Origin: a virus | Strand: one strand, 5' to 3' | IMG/VR virus record: IMGVR_UViG_3300042876_000378 | Location: 1-38,667 of that record | DNA length: 38,667 bases | In this document: positions 1,198-32,475 of the stretch, piece after piece | How the letters are laid out: every line of letters begins with the position of its first letter | Position numbering within the stretch: the first letter of the stretch is position 1 | Position numbers and translations under genes: made by a program | The notes under the pieces: generated by a model | The model's input: only the letters and a program-made list of their open reading frames with translations | Told to the model about the DNA's origin: nothing | Database searches by the model: none

Positions 1198-3521
1198 CCG
1201 GCTCGGAGCTGGTGCTGTCATCGGGCGAGGTCGTGCCGGTGCGGGACCGTCGTGGCGAGCGTCGTGACCCGCGAGGGTCGACCAGGGTGCTCGGCTACGT
1301 CGCCCCGGGGCGTGAGCAGATCGACGAGTGGAACGCCGCCCAGGCCTTCCGATTCGGGGTCAACATGAACGTGATCGCCTACCGCTGCGTGCAGCTGCGT
1401 GCACGCGCCGCGGCGACCCCTCCGCTGGTCGCCGGGCGACGCAAGGGCGACGCGACGTCGATCAACCCGAACGCCCGCATCAGCCGGCTGCTCGGCCCGC
1501 CCCCTGGTGGACCGGCGCCGCACCTGTCGGCGGTGAAGCTGCTGCGCTGGACCCACGCCCAGAAGATCGTCACCGGCCGTCGAGCCTGGGAGATCGAGAC
1601 CGACGACAACGGCACACCGACGGCGTTCTGGCCGCTCGCCGCGTCGAGCCTGCGGGCAGTGCCCTCGACGGGCGGCACCGAGTGGTTCTCGTCGTTCCGC
1701 TACGGCAAGCCGTCCGACCCGGTGAAGTTCCGCCCCGACCAGGTGTTCTACGGGTGGGAACCGTCAGGGACCGACTTCCGCCAGGCCGAGAGCGAGCTGC
1801 AGGCGGCCCGCTTCGACCTGTCGCTGGTCACCCTGTGCGACCAGTACGGGCTGTCGTTCCTGCGCAACAACGCCGTGCCCGCGGCGGTCATCACCACCAC
1901 GCAGTTCCCCGACGAGAACGCCCGCCAGCGCTTCCTGCAGTCGTGGCAGGCCGAGTTCGGCGGTGCGGGCAACGCCGGCCGGGTGGCGCTCAACGAGGTC
2001 TCCGAGGACGGCGACGGGCCGGTGGGCGACTCGATCGACGTCAAGGTGCTCGGCCTCTCGGCCCGCGACTCGCGCCTGGTGGAGATGCGCAAGGACCTGG
2101 TGCACGAGATCGCCATCGCCCTCGGCACCCCGTTCAGCAAGCTCGACGCGTCGGGGCGGACCTACGAGAACGCCAGCCAGGAGGACCTCGACTGGTGGGA
2201 GACGACGATCCTGCCGGACCTGGTCGATCTCGAGGACGACATCAACATGCAGCTCGCCCCGCGCCTGGGCGACGAGGTGGTGTGGTTCGACCTGCGCAAC
2301 GTGCGCGCCCTGCAGCGCCGCGTGCAGCCGATCACGCAGACCGTCGGCGCCCCGTCGCTCGTGCAGGCGCAGCTGATGACGATCAACGAGGCGCGCACCG
2401 ACTACGGCCTCGAGCCGGTACCCGGCGGTGACCGGATGATGACCGTCGAGGAGATCCAGGCACTGCGCGGCGGGCAGGCCATGAGCGACACCGCCGCCCG
2501 CGATGCGCTGGCGGCCATCGAGGTCCGCATGGCCGAGCTGGAGACCCGCAGCGCCGAGCCGCCACCTGCCGACCCGCACGAGACCGCTGACGACACCCCT
2601 GTTGGCCCAGAGCAGCGCGAACTGGACCCGGAGGCGATCGAGGCCCGCCGTGCGCGCATCTGGCGCAGCACCGACGCCGCGGCGACCGTGCTGGAGGGGC
2701 GCTGGCAGCGGGCGATGCAGCGCCTGTTCGACCGCCAGCTCGACGCCACCATCGGTCGCCTCACCGGCAAGCGGGGCCGCCAGCTGCTGCGTGACGCCCG
2801 GGCCGCGGACGCCGCCGAGGTCTTCGACCCCGAGTTCTGGCGGGCCGAGACGAGGGCGCTTGCCGAGGACCTCTACGAGCAGGTGGTCGCCGCGTCGACC
2901 GCCGCGTTGGCGTCCCGGTTCGAGGTGGCCTTCGATCTGGCCGCACCGTGGGTCGCCGAGTTCATCGCCGCGCGCTCCAACCAACTCGCCGGCCAGGTCA
3001 CCCAGACCACCTACGAGGCGATCCAGCGCCAGCTCACCGACGGCGTCGGGCTCGGCGAGACGGTCGACGAGCTCGCCGAGCGGATCCGAACCCTGTTCCG
3101 CCAGACCTACGCCCGCCGCGCCGAGACCGTCGCTCGCACCGAGGTGATCTCGGCCTACAACGGCGCCGGCGCAACGGGTGCCGCCACGCTCCCCGCCGAC
3201 GTCGTCGCCGGCCAGGAGTGGATCGCCACACGTGACGCCCGCACTCGTGACGCCCACGCTTCCGCCGACGGCCAGATCGTCGCCGTCGGGGCGGGGTTCG
3301 TCGTCGGAGGGCAGGCGATGGCCTACCCGGGCGACCCGAACGCCGGTTCGGCGAACGTGGTGAACTGCCGCTGCACCGTCGCCTTCCTCACCCCCGACGA
3401 GATGGCCGAGCTGGGTCGTTCCCGCACCGTCGACACCCGCACGGCGCTCGCACTGCTGCGCCTCGTCGACGCCGGCGACTTCGACGAGCACCGTTTCCGC
3501 CGAGCCCTGGAGGCAGCATGA
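1194..3521 (+). CDS. Portal protein fused to MuF-like minor head protein
   Basis: A 775-residue protein. The first 430 or so residues look like an HK97-type portal, the dodecameric ring through which DNA enters the head: GVNMNVIAYRCV near the start, then SGRTYENASQEDLDWW and the helix-rich INEARTDYGLEPVPGGD. After an acidic, proline-rich linker (about residues 445-485) comes a MuF domain with ARTEVISAYN (about 646), WIATRDARTRDAH and the closing VNCRCTV (about 724). Usually these are two neighbouring genes; here they are one frame with no internal stop. The start is the ATG at 1194 overlapping the terminase stop; the open frame extends upstream but is antisense-like noise within terL. Its stop overlaps the protease ATG. 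Confidence 0.9.
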   Translation: MTGSELVLSSGEVVPVRDRRGERRDPRGSTRVLGYVAPGREQIDEWNAAQAFRFGVNMNVIAYRCVQLRARAAATPPLVAGRRKGDATSINPNARISRLLGPPPGGPAPHLSAVKLLRWTHAQKIVTGRRAWEIETDDNGTPTAFWPLAASSLRAVPSTGGTEWFSSFRYGKPSDPVKFRPDQVFYGWEPSGTDFRQAESELQAARFDLSLVTLCDQYGLSFLRNNAVPAAVITTTQFPDENARQRFLQSWQAEFGGAGNAGRVALNEVSEDGDGPVGDSIDVKVLGLSARDSRLVEMRKDLVHEIAIALGTPFSKLDASGRTYENASQEDLDWWETTILPDLVDLEDDINMQLAPRLGDEVVWFDLRNVRALQRRVQPITQTVGAPSLVQAQLMTINEARTDYGLEPVPGGDRMMTVEEIQALRGGQAMSDTAARDALAAIEVRMAELETRSAEPPPADPHETADDTPVGPEQRELDPEAIEARRARIWRSTDAAATVLEGRWQRAMQRLFDRQLDATIGRLTGKRGRQLLRDARAADAAEVFDPEFWRAETRALAEDLYEQVVAASTAALASRFEVAFDLAAPWVAEFIAARSNQLAGQVTQTTYEAIQRQLTDGVGLGETVDELAERIRTLFRQTYARRAETVARTEVISAYNGAGATGAATLPADVVAGQEWIATRDARTRDAHASADGQIVAVGAGFVVGGQAMAYPGDPNAGSANVVNCRCTVAFLTPDEMAELGRSRTVDTRTALALLRLVDAGDFDEHRFRRALEAA

Positions 3522-4306
3522 CCATCGAACGCCGCATCTACCGCGCCGAGTGGCGCGACGTCCCTGGCAGCAACGGCCGCCAGAAGTGGGCCACGGCCGT
3601 CACCTACGGCACCGTCGACGACTACGGCACCCTGTGGCGACCCGGGGTGTTCGACGAGGCGCTCGCCGAGCGCATGCCGACGATCCTCTACGGCCACGAC
3701 TGGTACGACCTGAACCACGTGCTCGGGGCCGGGATCGACTTCCGCCAGACCCCCGCGGAGGTCGGCCCCCCTGGCGTCGACGTGCTGTTCGAGTTCGCCG
3801 ACCCCGACGAGGTGCCCTCGGCCCGGTTGGCGATGCGACTCCTCGACCCGAACGCGACGAGCAAGGGCCCGGTGTTGCGCGACGTCTCGGTCGGCTTCGA
3901 GCGGCGGGAGTGGATGTGCCGCGACGCGCTGACCGCCGAGCAGCTCGCCGCGGGCGCCGAGGAGGAGATGATCAAGGCGGGCATGGACGAGCTGAGCCTG
4001 GTGGTGCGCGGCGCAGTGCCGGGCGCGCAGGTCCGCAGTCGTCGCGGCACGATCGACCTCGACGCGGTGGTCGAGATCGCCAAGCGCAAGGCCGCCGGCG
4101 ACATCACCGACGCCGAAGCCGCCGAGGCCGTGAAGCTGCTCTCCGGAGAGACCCCGCCGCCACCGAAGGCCGACCCCGAGCCCGACGCCGAAGCGGCTGC
4201 CGCGGAGGCCGCCAGGTTGGCCGCCGAAGCCGCCGAGGCCGAGCAGGCGCTCGTCACCGACGTCGACGAGGCGCTCGCCCTGGTGCTCGGCCGCTCCCGC
4301 CGCTGA
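3518..4306 (+). CDS. Prohead protease with C-terminal alanine-rich extension
   Basis: A 262-residue HK97-family prohead protease, which cleaves the capsid precursor and itself during head maturation. His60 in YGHD and Ser124 in RDVSVGF are the likely catalytic pair, in the usual spacing for the family. Residues from about 185 onward are almost all Ala/Glu with a proline patch (TPPPPKADPEPD). This resembles a coiled-coil scaffold tail, and no separate scaffold gene is visible nearby, so the scaffolding role may lie here (inference). ATG overlaps the portal-MuF TGA. Confidence 0.87.
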   Translation: MTIERRIYRAEWRDVPGSNGRQKWATAVTYGTVDDYGTLWRPGVFDEALAERMPTILYGHDWYDLNHVLGAGIDFRQTPAEVGPPGVDVLFEFADPDEVPSARLAMRLLDPNATSKGPVLRDVSVGFERREWMCRDALTAEQLAAGAEEEMIKAGMDELSLVVRGAVPGAQVRSRRGTIDLDAVVEIAKRKAAGDITDAEAAEAVKLLSGETPPPPKADPEPDAEAAAAEAARLAAEAAEAEQALVTDVDEALALVLGRSRR

Positions 4307-4331
4307 CGTTCCCCTACACAAGGAGAAAGCC

Positions 4332-4586
4332 ATGCCCAAACCGACCATCGACCCGATCGTGGCCGCCCTCGACAGCGCGCTCCCGACGGCCGGCGGCCAG
4401 CGGCCCAAGTTGCTGGTCCTGTACGGCGACCGACCCGAAGTGCTCGAGGCCGTCGTTCGTGCCCGCACCAGCCGAGGACTGTCCTACGAGGCGATCGCCA
4501 AGGTGTTGACCAAGAACGCACCCGAGGGTGAGTCCGTGAGCGCGGGAGCGGTGAAGAAATGGCTCGACGCCCAGTCGATCCACTGA
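4332..4586 (+). CDS. Small helix-turn-helix-like protein
   Basis: An 84-residue protein of unknown function, preceded by a good ribosome-binding site (AAGGAGA at 4320-4326). The C-terminal half (RARTSRGLSYEAIAKVLTK...VSAGAVKKWLDAQ) reads like a helix-turn-helix with a recognition helix, so DNA binding is plausible. It ends 28 bases inside the following phosphoesterase gene, a longer overlap than elsewhere in this genome. It begins the cargo inserted between the protease and the capsid gene. Confidence 0.7.
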   Translation: MPKPTIDPIVAALDSALPTAGGQRPKLLVLYGDRPEVLEAVVRARTSRGLSYEAIAKVLTKNAPEGESVSAGAVKKWLDAQSIH

Positions 4587-5587
4587 GCGATCCGCTCGCT
4601 GCGGCGCTCGATGCCGAGACGCCCGAGCTGGCGGCCCTGCGGGAGGCGAACCAGCGGCTCACCCGGCAACTGATCGAGGCGCAGGCACGCACGAACATCC
4701 TCGTCGACACGGTGTATCGCGCCGCCTATGACGCCGCGGTGACCATCGGCCACCCACCCAAGGTGCCCAAGCCGCTCAAGGCTCGCACGACCACCCTCGA
4801 TCCACACCATGCGCTGATCCACACCACCGACTGGCAGGGCGGCAAGCGCACCGTCGACTACGACCTCGAGGTGCTGGAGCGCCGGCTGCGCCAGATGATG
4901 GACAAGGTGGCCACCCTCACCCAGCGCCACGGCCATCCGGTCCCTGAGGCCACGATCCTGTTCGGTGGCGACGACATCGAGGGCGTCAACATCTTCCCGA
5001 CGCAGCCGTTCGAGATCCACGCCGGTCTCTACGAGCAGGTCTTCGCGGTGGTGCGGCTCAAGCGGATGGTGGTCGATCATGCGCTGTCGATCTACGACCG
5101 CGTCACGGTGCGCCGCAAGTGGGGCAACCACGGCCGCATCGGTCGCTTCGGTGAGCTGCCCGACACCGACAACTTGGACCTGATGGCCGACGCGTTCGCC
5201 GCCGAGGCGTATCGGGACGACCCGCGCGTCGAGTGGCACACCGCCAACCTCGACTACGTGCAGCAGTTCCACATCGGCAACTACCACGCCGCACTGCTGC
5301 ACGGCAACGAGTTCTACAAGTCGTTCTCGGCTCAGCGCATCACCCAGAAGGTGACGGCGTGGCAGACGATCTACGGCTTCGGCGACGTGTACATGGGCCA
5401 CTTCCATCGCTCGGACGTCTACGGTCTGCCGAACGGGACGAAGGTGTACATGACCGGCAGCCCCGAGAGCAGCAACAGCTACGCGGCGGACATGCTCGCC
5501 GCCCAGTCGAAGCCCTCGCAGCGACTCCACTTCATCGACCCGCAGGCCGGCCGCGTGCAGTCCGAGCACGTCCTGCAGCTCGACTGA
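4559..5587 (+). CDS. Metallophosphoesterase (calcineurin/Mre11-like fold)
   Basis: A 342-residue protein with the ordered metal-binding motifs of the calcineurin-like phosphoesterase superfamily: TTDWQ (Asp91, Gln93 in place of the usual His), FGGDD (Asp138), GNHGR (Asn190, His191), LLHGN (His248) and MGHFH (His281, His283). The N-terminal 60 residues are helical and may be a coiled coil. The substrate cannot be read from sequence: Mre11-type nucleases and nucleotide or protein phosphatases share these motifs. It stands between head genes and the glycan genes rather than with replication, which makes a DNA-repair role less obvious. The start at 4559 overlaps the previous gene; a slightly later start is possible. 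Confidence 0.82.
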   Translation: MARRPVDPLSDPLAAALDAETPELAALREANQRLTRQLIEAQARTNILVDTVYRAAYDAAVTIGHPPKVPKPLKARTTTLDPHHALIHTTDWQGGKRTVDYDLEVLERRLRQMMDKVATLTQRHGHPVPEATILFGGDDIEGVNIFPTQPFEIHAGLYEQVFAVVRLKRMVVDHALSIYDRVTVRRKWGNHGRIGRFGELPDTDNLDLMADAFAAEAYRDDPRVEWHTANLDYVQQFHIGNYHAALLHGNEFYKSFSAQRITQKVTAWQTIYGFGDVYMGHFHRSDVYGLPNGTKVYMTGSPESSNSYAADMLAAQSKPSQRLHFIDPQAGRVQSEHVLQLD

Positions 5588-5590
5588 CCG

Positions 5591-5758
5591 ATGAGTGAGC
5601 CGATCGTGGTCCTGGCGGCCGAGACGAACCGACGCCTGCGCATCGCCCCGCATGAGGCTCAGGTGCTGGCCGACGTGTTGCGTCGTGTCATCCCCCGATC
5701 CGATGAGGAGCGTGTCGTGCTGCCCGAGCTCGTGCAGCGCCTGGAGCGGATGCGCTGA
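5591..5758 (+). CDS. Small hypothetical protein (55 aa)
   Basis: A 55-residue frame beginning at ATG 5591, three bases after the phosphoesterase stop, and ending at TGA 5756. It is charged and helical (many Arg and Glu; ending VLPELVQRLERMR) with no recognisable motif. Tight packing between two convincing genes and normal codon use support it. I do not recognise a family. Confidence 0.6.
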   Translation: MSEPIVVLAAETNRRLRIAPHEAQVLADVLRRVIPRSDEERVVLPELVQRLERMR

Positions 5759-5786
5759 GGTCAACAGCGACGCCGACGATGGCGTC

Positions 5787-6866
5787 GTGACAGCATCTCC
5801 GACGATCCGCGTCTACCCAGCCGACCTGGGTGGGTGCGGCTTCCACCGCATCATCTGGCCCGCCGAGTCGCTCGCCCGCAGCGGCGCACCCGTGACCGTC
5901 GTGCGCCCCGACGCCCCCGACGACGAGCAGATCCAGGCCACCTGGTGGAACGACGACGACGGCACTCGCCGTCTCGTCGGCGTCGCCCCGGTTGAGGCCG
6001 ACGTCGTCGTGCTGCAACGACCACTGACCGACACCCTCGCCGAGGCCATCCCCCGACTGCAGGCCCAGGGCGTGCGTGTCGTGGTCGAGATCGACGACGA
6101 CTTCGAGGCCATCTCCCGGCGCAACGTGTCGTGGCCGTCGGTCGACCCGATGCGTTCACCGCGCCGCAACCGCACCCACCTGCGTCATGCCTGCGAGCTG
6201 GCCGACCTGGTGGTCTGCTCGACGCCGGCGCTGGCCGAGCGCTACGGCAGCCACGGCAGGGTGCGCGTGGTGCGCAACCGGGTGCCATCGCACTACCTCG
6301 GCCTCGAGGCCGCACGCGACAAGGTGCCGACCGTCGGCTGGTCGGGTTCGATCGAGACCCACCCCGACGACCTCCAGGTGACCGGTGGCGGCGTCGCCCG
6401 GGCGCTGCTGCGCGCCGGGGGGCGCTTCGGCGTGGTCGGCACCGGCAAAGGCGTACAGCGGGCCCTCGGGCTGGCCGTGCCGCCGGTGGCCACCGGCTGG
6501 CTACCGATCGAGGCCTACCCGCGAGCGTTGGCGATGCTCGACGTCGGCATCGTGCCGTTGGAGCTGACGCCGTTCAACGAGGCGAAATCCGCGCTCAAGC
6601 TGATGGAGATGGCTGCGCTCGGCGTGGTCCCGGTGGTGTCACCGACGGCCGAGAACGTGCGGCTCGCCGCCGACGTGGGCGCCATCGTCGCCGAGACCCC
6701 GCGGGCATGGGGGGGTGTGCTCAAGCGCCTCCTGCGTGACGGGGCGTGGCGCCAGGAGCAGGGCGAACGCGTCCGCCAAGGGATGCGCCGGCACACCATC
6801 GAGGGCAACGCGGGGGAGTGGTTCGACGCCTGGGCCTCGGCGGTCAACACCCCCTGCGCAGCATGA
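5787..6866 (+). CDS. Glycosyltransferase, GT-B fold (GT4-like)
   Basis: A protein of about 359 residues that probably transfers a sugar from an activated nucleotide donor. The C-terminal half has the typical GT-B layout: VGWSGS after the linker (about 193), FGVVGTG (about 214-220), ATGWLP, and the donor-site stretch FNEAKSALKLMEMAALGVVPVV (about 263-284), which carries the E-x7-E-like pattern. EIDDDFEAI (about 101) sits in the N-terminal domain. I chose GTG 5787, just before the first folded strand (IRVYPAD); the frame is open further upstream but that would overlap the preceding small gene. It is followed by a second glycosyltransferase, a methyltransferase and an epimerase, so it belongs to a sugar-modification cluster inside the head operon. 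Confidence 0.85.
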   Translation: MTASPTIRVYPADLGGCGFHRIIWPAESLARSGAPVTVVRPDAPDDEQIQATWWNDDDGTRRLVGVAPVEADVVVLQRPLTDTLAEAIPRLQAQGVRVVVEIDDDFEAISRRNVSWPSVDPMRSPRRNRTHLRHACELADLVVCSTPALAERYGSHGRVRVVRNRVPSHYLGLEAARDKVPTVGWSGSIETHPDDLQVTGGGVARALLRAGGRFGVVGTGKGVQRALGLAVPPVATGWLPIEAYPRALAMLDVGIVPLELTPFNEAKSALKLMEMAALGVVPVVSPTAENVRLAADVGAIVAETPRAWGGVLKRLLRDGAWRQEQGERVRQGMRRHTIEGNAGEWFDAWASAVNTPCAA

Positions 6867-25114: not shown

Positions 25115-25157
25115 GACACGGTGGAGGTCTCGGGTTCGAATCCCGCCACGCCCACCA
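25115..25157 (+). other. 3' half of a tRNA gene (att core), probably tRNA-Val(GAC)
   Basis: The segment runs from GACAC (anticodon-like) through GGTGG and the variable loop AGGTC. The T-arm follows (TCGGG, loop TTCGAAT, CCCGC), then an acceptor strand CACGCCC, discriminator A and encoded CCA. Five-prime features (acceptor partner GGGCGTG, D-arm) are absent, so it is not a working tRNA. It would restore the 3' end of the host gene upon integration. The outermost T-stem pair is a T-C mismatch, so the identity with the host gene may not be perfect. The Val assignment rests only on the GAC in the anticodon position. Confidence 0.72.
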
Positions 25158-25195: not shown

Positions 25196-25264
25196 TTCGC
25201 GTTGTCGGGCCGGGCGTGACCATTCGTGACCATCGGCTGCGCAGTGGTGCCACGATGTGCACCG

Positions 25265-26356
25265 ATGAAGGGCACCCTCGATCGACTCCCGTCGGGCCGC
25301 TGGCGGCTGCGCGTGCAGGTCGCCGGCCACCGCCACCAGCGCACCGTCAGCGCCCGCACCAAGCGTGACGCCCAGCTCGCCCTCGCCGAGTTCGTCGCCG
25401 AGATCGGCGCGGTCCCCGACGACGGCCACGGCATCACCGTCGCCCAGCTGCTCGCCCACCACCAGCGCCAGGCGCAGTGGCAGGCCACCACCAGGGCCCG
25501 GCGCGTCGAGCTGTTCGAGCGGTTGCCGGCCTGGTTCGTCGCCCTCGAGGTGGCGGCCGTCCGCCCGGCGACGCTGCAGCGCCTGTGGGCCGACGTCGAC
25601 GCCACCGCCCACGGCAAGGCGACGTTGCACTCGGCGCTCGCAGCGGCCTGGAAACGGGCCGTGGCACTCGGCTGGATCGCCGCCAGCCCGTTCACCGCGG
25701 TCCGACCCCCGACGCCCCGCAGAGCGCAAATCAGCCCGCCCTCGCCGGAGATGGTGCGCCGCGCCGTCGCCGCCTCCGCTGCGGCAGCACCGTGGCAGCC
25801 GGTCGCGTTCACGATCGCCGCCACCACCGGGATGCGTCGCGGCGAGCTGTGCGGGCTGCAGTGGGGCGACGTCGACCTGCAGGCCGGGCAGCTCACCGTC
25901 GCACGCTCCGTCGCCTACACGCCACGCGCCGGGGTGGTGGTGAAGTCGACCAAGACCGGCACGGTGCGCACCATCGCCCTCGACGACACCACGCTCGGCC
26001 TGCTCGCCGAGCATCGAGCCCAGGCCGAGACGCTCGCCGGGCTGCTCGGGCTTTCAGAAGTTGAAAGCGGCCACTTCGTGTTCCCGGCCGCCGGCGACCC
26101 GCGCCGTCCGTGCCGCCCCGACAACCTCACCCAGGCATGGGAGCGCGCCTGCGCCCGCGCCGGAGTCACCGGGGTGCGCCTCCACGACCTGCGCCACTTC
26201 ACCGCCACCCAGCTGCTCGGCGCCGGCGTCGACGTGCGCACCGTCGCCGGCCGTCTCGGCCACGCCCGCACCTCCACCACCCTCGACCGCTACGGGGCGT
26301 TCATGCCTGCCCGCGACCGCGACGCCGCCGAGCTGCTCGGCCGACTGGTGGGCTAG
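25265..26356 (+). CDS. int: Tyrosine integrase
   Basis: A 363-residue site-specific recombinase. The N-terminal LPSGRWRLRVQVAGHRHQRTVSARTKRDAQ is an arm-binding domain, followed by a core-binding helical domain (about 57-150). The catalytic residues are Arg191 (TGMRRGEL), a lysine near 227-230, His307 and Arg310 (LHDLRHFTATQLL), His333 (GRLGHARTSTT) and Tyr343 (LDRYGAF). I prefer ATG 25265 to the GTG at 25226, because the latter lies within the right-hand arm box and adds residues unlike the family. Its TAG (26354-26356) overlaps the stop of the converging lipoprotein gene. Confidence 0.93.
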   Translation: MKGTLDRLPSGRWRLRVQVAGHRHQRTVSARTKRDAQLALAEFVAEIGAVPDDGHGITVAQLLAHHQRQAQWQATTRARRVELFERLPAWFVALEVAAVRPATLQRLWADVDATAHGKATLHSALAAAWKRAVALGWIAASPFTAVRPPTPRRAQISPPSPEMVRRAVAASAAAAPWQPVAFTIAATTGMRRGELCGLQWGDVDLQAGQLTVARSVAYTPRAGVVVKSTKTGTVRTIALDDTTLGLLAEHRAQAETLAGLLGLSEVESGHFVFPAAGDPRRPCRPDNLTQAWERACARAGVTGVRLHDLRHFTATQLLGAGVDVRTVAGRLGHARTSTTLDRYGAFMPARDRDAAELLGRLVG

Positions 26357-31063: not shown

Positions 31064-31762
31064 ATGGCAATCGCATCCGACTCCGGCGGCGGGACACCGT
31101 TCGCCAAGCTCATCAACCTCGGCGACACCATCGTCGGGGCTCACGCCTCTCGGCCACGGGACTGCGTGCGCGAGAAGCGCAAGTACGGCACCGACGAGGT
31201 GCTGTTGAAGGCCAATGGTCAGCCGGCCAAGGAGGAGATCCTCTGGCTCGTCGCCATGCCCGGCACGACTGCCGTCACCGGCAACGTCGAGAAGGGCGAC
31301 CTCACCCCGATCGAGCCGATGGATCTGATCCGGTTCTCCGTCGACGGCTACAAGTGGGGCCAGGTCATCCAGGCCCGCCAGGAGCTGCCGGCGGCCAACG
31401 GGTTCAAGGTCGGCCAGACCGCATCGGGCGACGTGTACACGATCACCCTCATCGGTTGGTCGGCCGAGACCGACAACGCCAAAGCCGCCGAGGCGGCGGG
31501 ATTCACCGTCGTCGACGGGCGGATCGTGCTGCGCTCGCAGGAGGACAAGGACCGCTACGTCCTGGCCAAGAGCCGTCAGGGTGGCAACACCAACCCGGCC
31601 CGCGACCTCGAGGTGAGTATCCGCCGTCCCGGACCCGCCGACAAGGCCTACGAGCAGGAGGCCGACCGCATCTTCCTCGACGAGCCGTGGAAGCGCAGCC
31701 TCGCCACCGTCGGCGGCGGCGCTGCGGCCGAGAACACGCCCGACGACGACGAGCCGTTCTGA
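31064..31762 (+). CDS. Single-stranded-DNA-binding protein-like
   Basis: A 232-residue protein with AAGGAG (31052-31057) before ATG 31064. The end DDDEPF is the acidic tip by which SSB proteins recruit partners. The body is a beta-rich domain (EEILWLVAMPGTTAVTGNV ... DVYTITLIGWSAET) consistent with an OB fold, though longer than bacterial SSB. Position between the Cas4-like nuclease and the primase-helicase genes fits a replication/recombination role. Confidence 0.75.
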   Translation: MAIASDSGGGTPFAKLINLGDTIVGAHASRPRDCVREKRKYGTDEVLLKANGQPAKEEILWLVAMPGTTAVTGNVEKGDLTPIEPMDLIRFSVDGYKWGQVIQARQELPAANGFKVGQTASGDVYTITLIGWSAETDNAKAAEAAGFTVVDGRIVLRSQEDKDRYVLAKSRQGGNTNPARDLEVSIRRPGPADKAYEQEADRIFLDEPWKRSLATVGGGAAAENTPDDDEPF

Positions 31763-31802
31763 CTCTCCCGACAGGGCGCCCGCCGTCAGCGACATGACGG
31801 CA

Positions 31803-31868
31803 CCCCACGATCAGGCGATGGCACGCACGGCAGCGCTGCCCCCGGTTCGACACCGGGCGTGGGGGCCA
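31803..31868 (+). ncRNA. tRNA-like structure of 66 nt with reduced anticodon arm
   Basis: A complete seven-pair acceptor stem (CCCCACG 31803-31809 with CGTGGGG 31858-31864) is followed by discriminator G and encoded CCA (31866-31868). The T-arm is perfect: CCCGG, loop TTCGACA, CCGGG (31841-31857). The D-arm is GCG, loop ATGGCA, CGC (31815-31826), keeping the GG that pairs with the T-loop. In place of the 17-nt anticodon arm and variable loop is GGCA-GCGC-TGCC (31829-31840), a four-pair stem with a four-base loop and no anticodon. It lies in the 131-base gap between the SSB-like gene and the next, 25 bases before ATG 31894. It may be a decayed tRNA, a tRNA mimic or an RNase P processing signal. 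Confidence 0.6.
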
Positions 31869-31893
31869 CCGAACACCAGCAAGGAGCAACGCC

Positions 31894-32475
31894 ATGAACC
31901 AGACACCGGGGGAGATCGCCATCGACCTCCTCAACGCCATCGACGCCAAGCACGCAGCCCAGCGCCAGGCGCTCGTCGACCTGCTCGTCGAGCAGGGGCT
32001 GATCGCGTACGAGGAGGAGGACGACGCCGAAAACGACGACGTCGAGGGAACCGACCAGGCGGCGATCGAGGCGGCGCAGGCTTTCGTGGCCACCCAGCTC
32101 GCCCGCAACGAAGCCGAGCTCGCCGCCCGGCACGCCGCGACCAGCAACCCGGTGCGCGTCATCGATGCCGACGTGCTCGACGAGACCGAGGTGCAGGTCA
32201 TCCGCGATTCGATCACCCCGAGGACGCAGCGCACCAACGCCCGCTACAACGAGACCGACATCGTTCGGGTCGCACGCCACGCCCACAGCGAAGGGCGCAG
32301 TATCGGCGGGGCGATCCGCGACGAGCTGGGCATGTCCAACGCCTCGGCGTACGCATGGGCGAAGCGGCTCAAGATGGAGGGCCGCCTCGATGTCGCACCG
32401 ACCGCCGCCGCAACACCCGACACCCCGCGGTTCGGGGTCGAGGACGCCATGCGCGAGATCGACGGTGCGGCGTGA
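31894..32475 (+). CDS. Hypothetical protein with helix-turn-helix-like C-terminus
   Basis: A 193-residue protein with AAGGAG at 31881-31886. The N-terminal half is acidic and helical (YEEEDDAENDDVEGTDQAAIEAAQ). The C-terminal part, IVRVARHAHSEGRSIGGAIRDELGMSNASAYAWAKRLKMEG, looks like a helix-turn-helix of the type found in resolvase or regulator tails. It is translated from just after the tRNA-like element. Function unknown. Confidence 0.68.
   Translation: MNQTPGEIAIDLLNAIDAKHAAQRQALVDLLVEQGLIAYEEEDDAENDDVEGTDQAAIEAAQAFVATQLARNEAELAARHAATSNPVRVIDADVLDETEVQVIRDSITPRTQRTNARYNETDIVRVARHAHSEGRSIGGAIRDELGMSNASAYAWAKRLKMEGRLDVAPTAAATPDTPRFGVEDAMREIDGAA

Follow-up and report, generated by a model that had tools for sequence, protein, structure and literature searches.

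The locus, in a temperate actinobacterial phage, raises the question of what a tRNA-like element with a much altered decoding end is doing in the gap between two early genes. The phage is represented by the window, the whole stretch of 38,667 nt which was analysed, and the element occupies positions 31803-31868 of its plus strand. With 66 nt, it is ten nucleotides shorter than the 76 nt of a tRNA. The position, the seven of seven acceptor pairs, the perfect T-arm and the ten-base shortfall had been described in a sequence-only reading of the locus, and all of them were found to be exact.

Composition and fold of the element

The element consists of the 5' strand of the acceptor stem, CCCCACG (31803-31809), a D-like hairpin ATC-AGGC-GAT (31810-31819), a middle arm at the place of the anticodon arm (31820-31840), the T-arm CCCGG-TTCGACA-CCGGG (31841-31857), the 3' strand of the acceptor stem, CGTGGGG (31858-31864), which forms Watson-Crick pairs with all seven bases of the 5' strand, and the discriminator G31865 followed by the encoded CCA (31866-31868). 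The element is real and lies far above chance. A strict pattern, which demanded seven acceptor pairs and five T-stem pairs of Watson-Crick type together with the loop motif TTC[AG]A, occurred once in the window, whereas 0.0013 occurrences per window were expected from dinucleotide-matched random windows, and none of the 1500 simulated windows contained the pattern together with CCA. The strictness of the pattern matters, since 0.12 occurrences per window are expected when G-U pairs are allowed. Apart from genuine tRNAs, a G-U-tolerant scan of 597 kb of other phage loci hit nothing but the homologous element described below. The folding energy was only mildly unusual in comparison with shuffled sequences (z of -1.4 for the element alone and -2.4 with its flanks), and the case for the element is therefore made by the pattern and its conservation rather than by energy.

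RNAfold assigned pairing probabilities of 0.97-1.0 to the acceptor and T-stems, and the 7-bp acceptor stem, the 5-bp T-arm and the TTCRA loop of a tRNA are thus all present. The D hairpin is reduced to three pairs and four loop bases, and the linker of positions 8-9 is missing. The GG which the sequence-only reading assigned to the D-arm does lie in the loop of this hairpin, and the D-loop GG, the TTCGA T-loop and the stack of 5+7 bp are all kept in the related phage as well. Non-tRNA substrates of RNase P are characterized by a T/acceptor stack of about 12 bp with an elbow (PMC4919913, PMC10731613), and the corresponding 5+7 bp, GG loop and TTCGA loop are found both in the sequence and in the predicted fold. 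The minimum-energy form of the middle arm has 7 bp, one bulge and the loop ACGGCA (GGCA-CGC-ACGGCA-GCG-C-TGCC). The 4-bp stem with a GCGC loop proposed earlier (GGCA-GCGC-TGCC) is a possible alternative, which can also form in the relative with one G-U pair, but it is not the minimum-energy structure. The inner fold is ambiguous: the bulged arm is favoured by RNAfold, the 4-bp stem is the alternative, and two sequences cannot decide between them.

Genomic setting and a homologue in a related phage

The gene upstream of the element (31064-31762, plus strand) encodes an SSB-like protein of 232 aa, whose relatives are 43-71% identical and which has no match in Pfam or PHROG. Its acidic tip DDDEPF resembles the C-termini of SSB proteins. 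According to RNAfold, the stop codon is followed by a small hairpin CCC-GACA-GGG (31767-31776) and by a hairpin of 7 bp with a 6-nt loop, GCCGTCA-GCGACA-TGACGGC (31782-31801), which lies immediately 5' of the element. The ribosome-binding site AAGGAG (31881-31886) 3' of the element belongs to the downstream gene (31894-32475, plus strand), which encodes a protein of 193 aa with a weak resemblance to HTH_Tnp_1. An N-terminal coding extension of this gene into the element was rejected, as there is no in-frame ATG, GTG or TTG from the stop at 31795 to the ATG at 31894. Scanning with sigma-70-type and T-run patterns revealed neither a promoter nor a T-run terminator around the element.

When IMG/VR was scanned for the pattern, most of the hits were ordinary tRNAs with CCCCACG as their acceptor strand, and one was locus L010 in the 37.6-kb phage G005, which carries a 68-nt version of the element. 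The two phages share the gene order exonuclease, SSB-like protein, element, variable small gene, WhiB, RuvC and primase-polymerase (PHROGs and Pfam), and their SSB-like proteins are about 56% identical. The element lies at the same place in gaps of 131 nt (window) and 129 nt (G005) with the same layout: the stop codon is followed by 40 or 41 nt that hold two hairpins, then by the element, and finally by 20-29 nt which contain the ribosome-binding site and lead up to the start codon. The first hairpin has a counterpart in G005 (ATCCCT..AGGGAT), the second one is replaced at the equivalent place by a hairpin of another sequence (GCTCG-GAAAGA-CGAGC, RNAfold), and the variable small genes of the two phages have no detectable homology.

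Nucleotide identity between the two phages was 85% in the element, 73% in the SSB-like gene and 54-66% in the flanks. The four differences in the acceptor, D and T stems represent two compensated pairs, and no pair is broken: an A-U pair of the D hairpin is replaced by G-C (GTC-GGGT-GAC in G005) and the first T-stem pair, C-G, by A-U (ACCGG-TTCGACT-CCGGT). When four substitutions were placed at random, 0.04% of trials preserved Watson-Crick pairing throughout the fifteen pairs, a figure which is supportive rather than decisive since only two sequences were compared and the stems were picked after inspecting both. Nine bases of the middle arm, CGCACGGCA, are identical in both phages. The covariance-model scores of 96.5 and 83.4 bits, with the next best match at 32.9, were obtained by the two elements from which the model had been built and which thus match by construction. 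The presence of the element in the same gap of a relative with matching base-pair changes makes a functional RNA shape probable; compensated pairs of the kind that the sequence-only reading had suggested looking for in such a gap were there, and the normal-length tRNA which it had named as contrary evidence was found in no relative examined. The discriminator and CCA are encoded as that reading described, but G005 has ACTC at their place, and the argument drawn from the CCA fails because it is not conserved.

The element was found in these two phages only. Among the relatives carrying the SSB-like gene, L002, L003 and L023-L025 have no such element; three of these (L002, L003 and L023) are distinct relatives, and the element is therefore dispensable. 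In L021, the SSB-like gene is followed by a strongly structured gap of 234 nt (3724-3957) with the hairpin CCGG-GTTCACGA-CCGG and no recognisable tRNA-like element. The contig of the closest relative, L026 (71%), ends 65 nt past the stop codon, where only a strong hairpin was seen. The RuvC-bearing phages (80 loci) yielded no further copy, with none near 78 further RuvC genes, nor did 297 genomes belonging to one actinobacterial class contain a credible one; two matches in actinobacterial genomes (L111 and L112) gave no tRNA call, did not look tRNA-like and were ascribed to chance. The pattern CGCACGGCARGCG..CCGGTTCGA occurred beyond L010 only in L020, without the acceptor/T-arm pattern, and was likewise judged from its sequence to be a chance match. 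The named phage collection contained no relative of the SSB-like protein, and its DNA matches to the element were short and at chance level. As a separate observation, 12 of the RuvC-bearing loci (L036, L037, L039, L040, L043, L044, L047-L050, L065 and L069) carry a tRNA-His(GTG) gene, which is encoded on the other strand and located about 1-1.5 kb downstream of RuvC.

A candidate RNase P substrate and competing readings

Of the three functions guessed in the sequence-only reading (a tRNA mimic, a decoy for tRNA-cutting defences and an RNase P processing mark), the last suits the position and anatomy of the element best. We give about an even chance to the proposal that the element is a miniature tRNA-like substrate for RNase P and 3' processing, which cuts the polycistronic early replication-operon mRNA of temperate actinophages. 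The acceptor and T-arm would form a 12-bp stack and the D-loop GG would form the elbow with the T-loop, both features being measured by RNase P, for which the elbow is the point from which the T-stem/acceptor stack is read (PMC4919913). RNase P would cut at 31802/31803, the cut past the acceptor would be made by an activity that processes tRNA 3' ends, and the SSB-like message would thus be separated from the downstream one. The new 3' end of the former would be capped by the adjoining hairpin, the latter would keep a short leader with its own ribosome-binding site, and the released body of 62-66 nt may last as a stable CCA-ended mini-tRNA-like RNA.

Natural non-tRNA substrates of RNase P include phage phi80 M3 RNA, the hisCD operon mRNA and pre-4.5S RNA, in which, as proposed here, a helix of a phage or operon RNA is recognised in place of the acceptor/T stack of a pre-tRNA (PMC10731613, PMC11143913). 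Compared with substrates of the M3 type, the window element has a full acceptor stem, a T-arm, the D-loop GG and an intergenic place in an operon; M3 RNA is likened to it by description, not by sequence. In MALAT1, a tRNA-like element is removed by RNase P and an upstream structure protects the new 3' end (PMC10869381), which is the arrangement proposed for the phage element and one that its adjoining 5' hairpin would permit. The likeness to MALAT1/mascRNA (RF01684) is a functional analogy only, as MALAT1 is a nuclear lncRNA of animals that contains a triple helix and the window element has no Rfam match. The acceptor stem and T-arm pattern of the element is the same as in phage tRNA-Arg genes with the acceptor strand CCCCACG, which differ from it in their length of 71-73 nt and their normal D and anticodon arms; such an ordinary phage tRNA-Arg is a plausible ancestor. 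We file the element among the known tRNA-like elements of RNase P type as a variant and not as a separate kind.

The identity of CGCACGGCA in both phages counts against an RNase P site as the sole function, because recognition by RNase P alone needs no such identity in the middle arm. The conserved middle arm would be better explained if the processed RNA acted in trans as a tRNA mimic which binds or occupies tRNA-handling enzymes, either as a defence decoy or as a Y-RNA-like partner, and cleavage in cis only served to make it. The retention of the elbow and acceptor with loss of the decoding parts agrees with this rather unlikely reading, and a precedent is the tRNA-like domain of YrlA, a non-coding RNA (RF02553; Y RNA, RF01053), which was proposed to inhibit an anticodon nuclease by competition (PMC7790460). 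A decoy for such a nuclease would, however, be expected to have retained an anticodon loop, and the scan for promoters of sigma-70 type gave the element none of its own. YrlA and Y RNAs are reportedly encoded close to Ro60 in bacteria and phages (described by Chen et al. in 2014), whereas neither phage record, which may be incomplete, contains a Ro60/TROVE gene, and the element has neither a match to YrlA nor a recognised Ro60-binding stem. Its identity as a YrlA or Y RNA was rejected on the first two of these grounds.

It is improbable that the element is a decaying pseudogene of an earlier full-length phage tRNA. The missing ten nucleotides, the lack of the element in several relatives and the occurrence of its acceptor strand in ordinary tRNA-Arg genes would fit decay, but the element is better conserved than the adjoining gene, shows two compensatory changes and has a perfect acceptor stem in both phages, and, as stated above, no relative examined has a normal-length tRNA at its place. 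We also see little probability in a tRNA likeness that arose by accident in a hairpin complex for mRNA stabilisation, translation control or termination. Large hairpins which are not tRNA-like do follow the equivalent gene in L021 and L026, but the conserved TTCGA loop, the 5+7 bp stack and the GG loop exceed what a generic hairpin would need, and no T-run follows the element.

That the element is an unusual tRNA which still decodes, e.g. one with a short D-arm and an anticodon resembling GGC or ACG, is quite doubtful. A phage tRNA with a shortened D-arm and a clear anticodon loop CTACGAA (L009:9579-9645) was missed by ARAGORN, and the G005 version can be drawn with the 7-nt loop ACGGCAA on four pairs. 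On the other hand, U33 is absent in both phages, no arm of 5 bp with a 7-nt loop can be drawn in 31820-31840 of the window, and at the element ARAGORN called no tRNA and the Rfam tRNA model (RF00005) found no match at its gathering threshold. The G005 element scored 20.4 with the tRNA-Sec model and was not accepted as a member, the threshold being 47. A tmRNA, with a tRNA-like domain and an mRNA-like part with a tag frame, was found by neither ARAGORN nor Rfam. The lack of U33 and of a canonical anticodon arm, together with the syntenic homologue, the compensatory changes and the intact acceptor, T-arm and GG, supports the earlier suggestion that tRNA-likeness and not decoding has been selected.

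Integrase-associated tRNA fragments and other short elements

By a six-frame search, both phages were shown to encode a tyrosine integrase (window, 25226-26356 with the domain match at 25769-26293; G005, match at 5476-5994), and attP sites of tRNA type carry the T-arm and the 3' half of the acceptor. That the element is an attachment site (attP) with the 3' end of a host tRNA is nevertheless very unlikely, because tRNA 3' fragments from other tRNAs adjoin both integrases. The fragment at 25124-25157 of the window (GAGGTCTCGGGTTCGAATCCCGCCACGCCCACCA) lies upstream of the integrase and is probably attP; in G005, a 3' half resembling tRNA-Val(TAC) at about 4824-4877 (L126, 525-578), which precedes the integrase domain by about 600 nt, is probably an attP for integration into tRNA-Val. 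These fragments are about 5 kb or more away from the element, which carries its own matching 5' acceptor strand. The 3' half of the element had no exact match in the 297 genomes of one actinobacterial class, which may not be that of the host, and of the few matches with one or two mismatches, the two inspected were not tRNAs. Among 198 genomes of an actinobacterial class, none matched the window fragment at 25124-25157 with up to one mismatch, and the host of the window phage may therefore lie elsewhere.

The open-access literature searched contained no report of a mini-tRNA that lacks an anticodon and lies between phage genes. If the proposed functions are true, phages cut operons or make tRNA-mimic RNAs by means of minimal tRNA look-alikes which tRNA finders miss, and the element would be a concrete, testable object for studying how phage mRNA is processed by RNase P and how tRNAs are mimicked in phage-host conflict. 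It would also supply a search model of acceptor, T-arm and a short D hairpin, for which current annotation has no equivalent. An unrelated phage has a cloverleaf-like element of 62 nt (L016:5232-5293) between two small genes, which starts 4 nt past a stop codon, lies ahead of the ribosome-binding site of the second gene and ends 36 nt before its start, and whose T-stem is not favoured by RNAfold. The short tRNA-like form at L006:351-419 scores below the tRNA threshold (22.1 vs 29). The resemblance of both in the acceptor and T-arm results from their selection, since the search pattern fixes these parts. It is possible, though we hold it unlikely, that anticodon-less mini-tRNAs such as those of the window, G005 and L016 form a recurrent class of phage RNAs, which would serve as trans-acting mimics against tRNA-targeting host enzymes and as operon punctuation.

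Some minor observations concern these and similar loci. The L016 element has a possible 8-nt loop ATGATAGC and a sub-threshold score with the Deinococcus Y RNA model (14.7 bits vs 80). In L006 (317-341, 351-419 and 460-483), the short element is directly preceded by a promoter-like TTGACA..TATAAT and followed by an inverted copy which is complementary to its D and anticodon arms and with which an alternative structure could form. L015, a contig of a phage with many tRNAs, has several Arg-like tRNAs (3169-3247, 4040-4117 and 4323-4401) in which the D-arm is nearly lost and the long variable region has a D-arm-like stretch, e.g. GTAGCTGGAGC.
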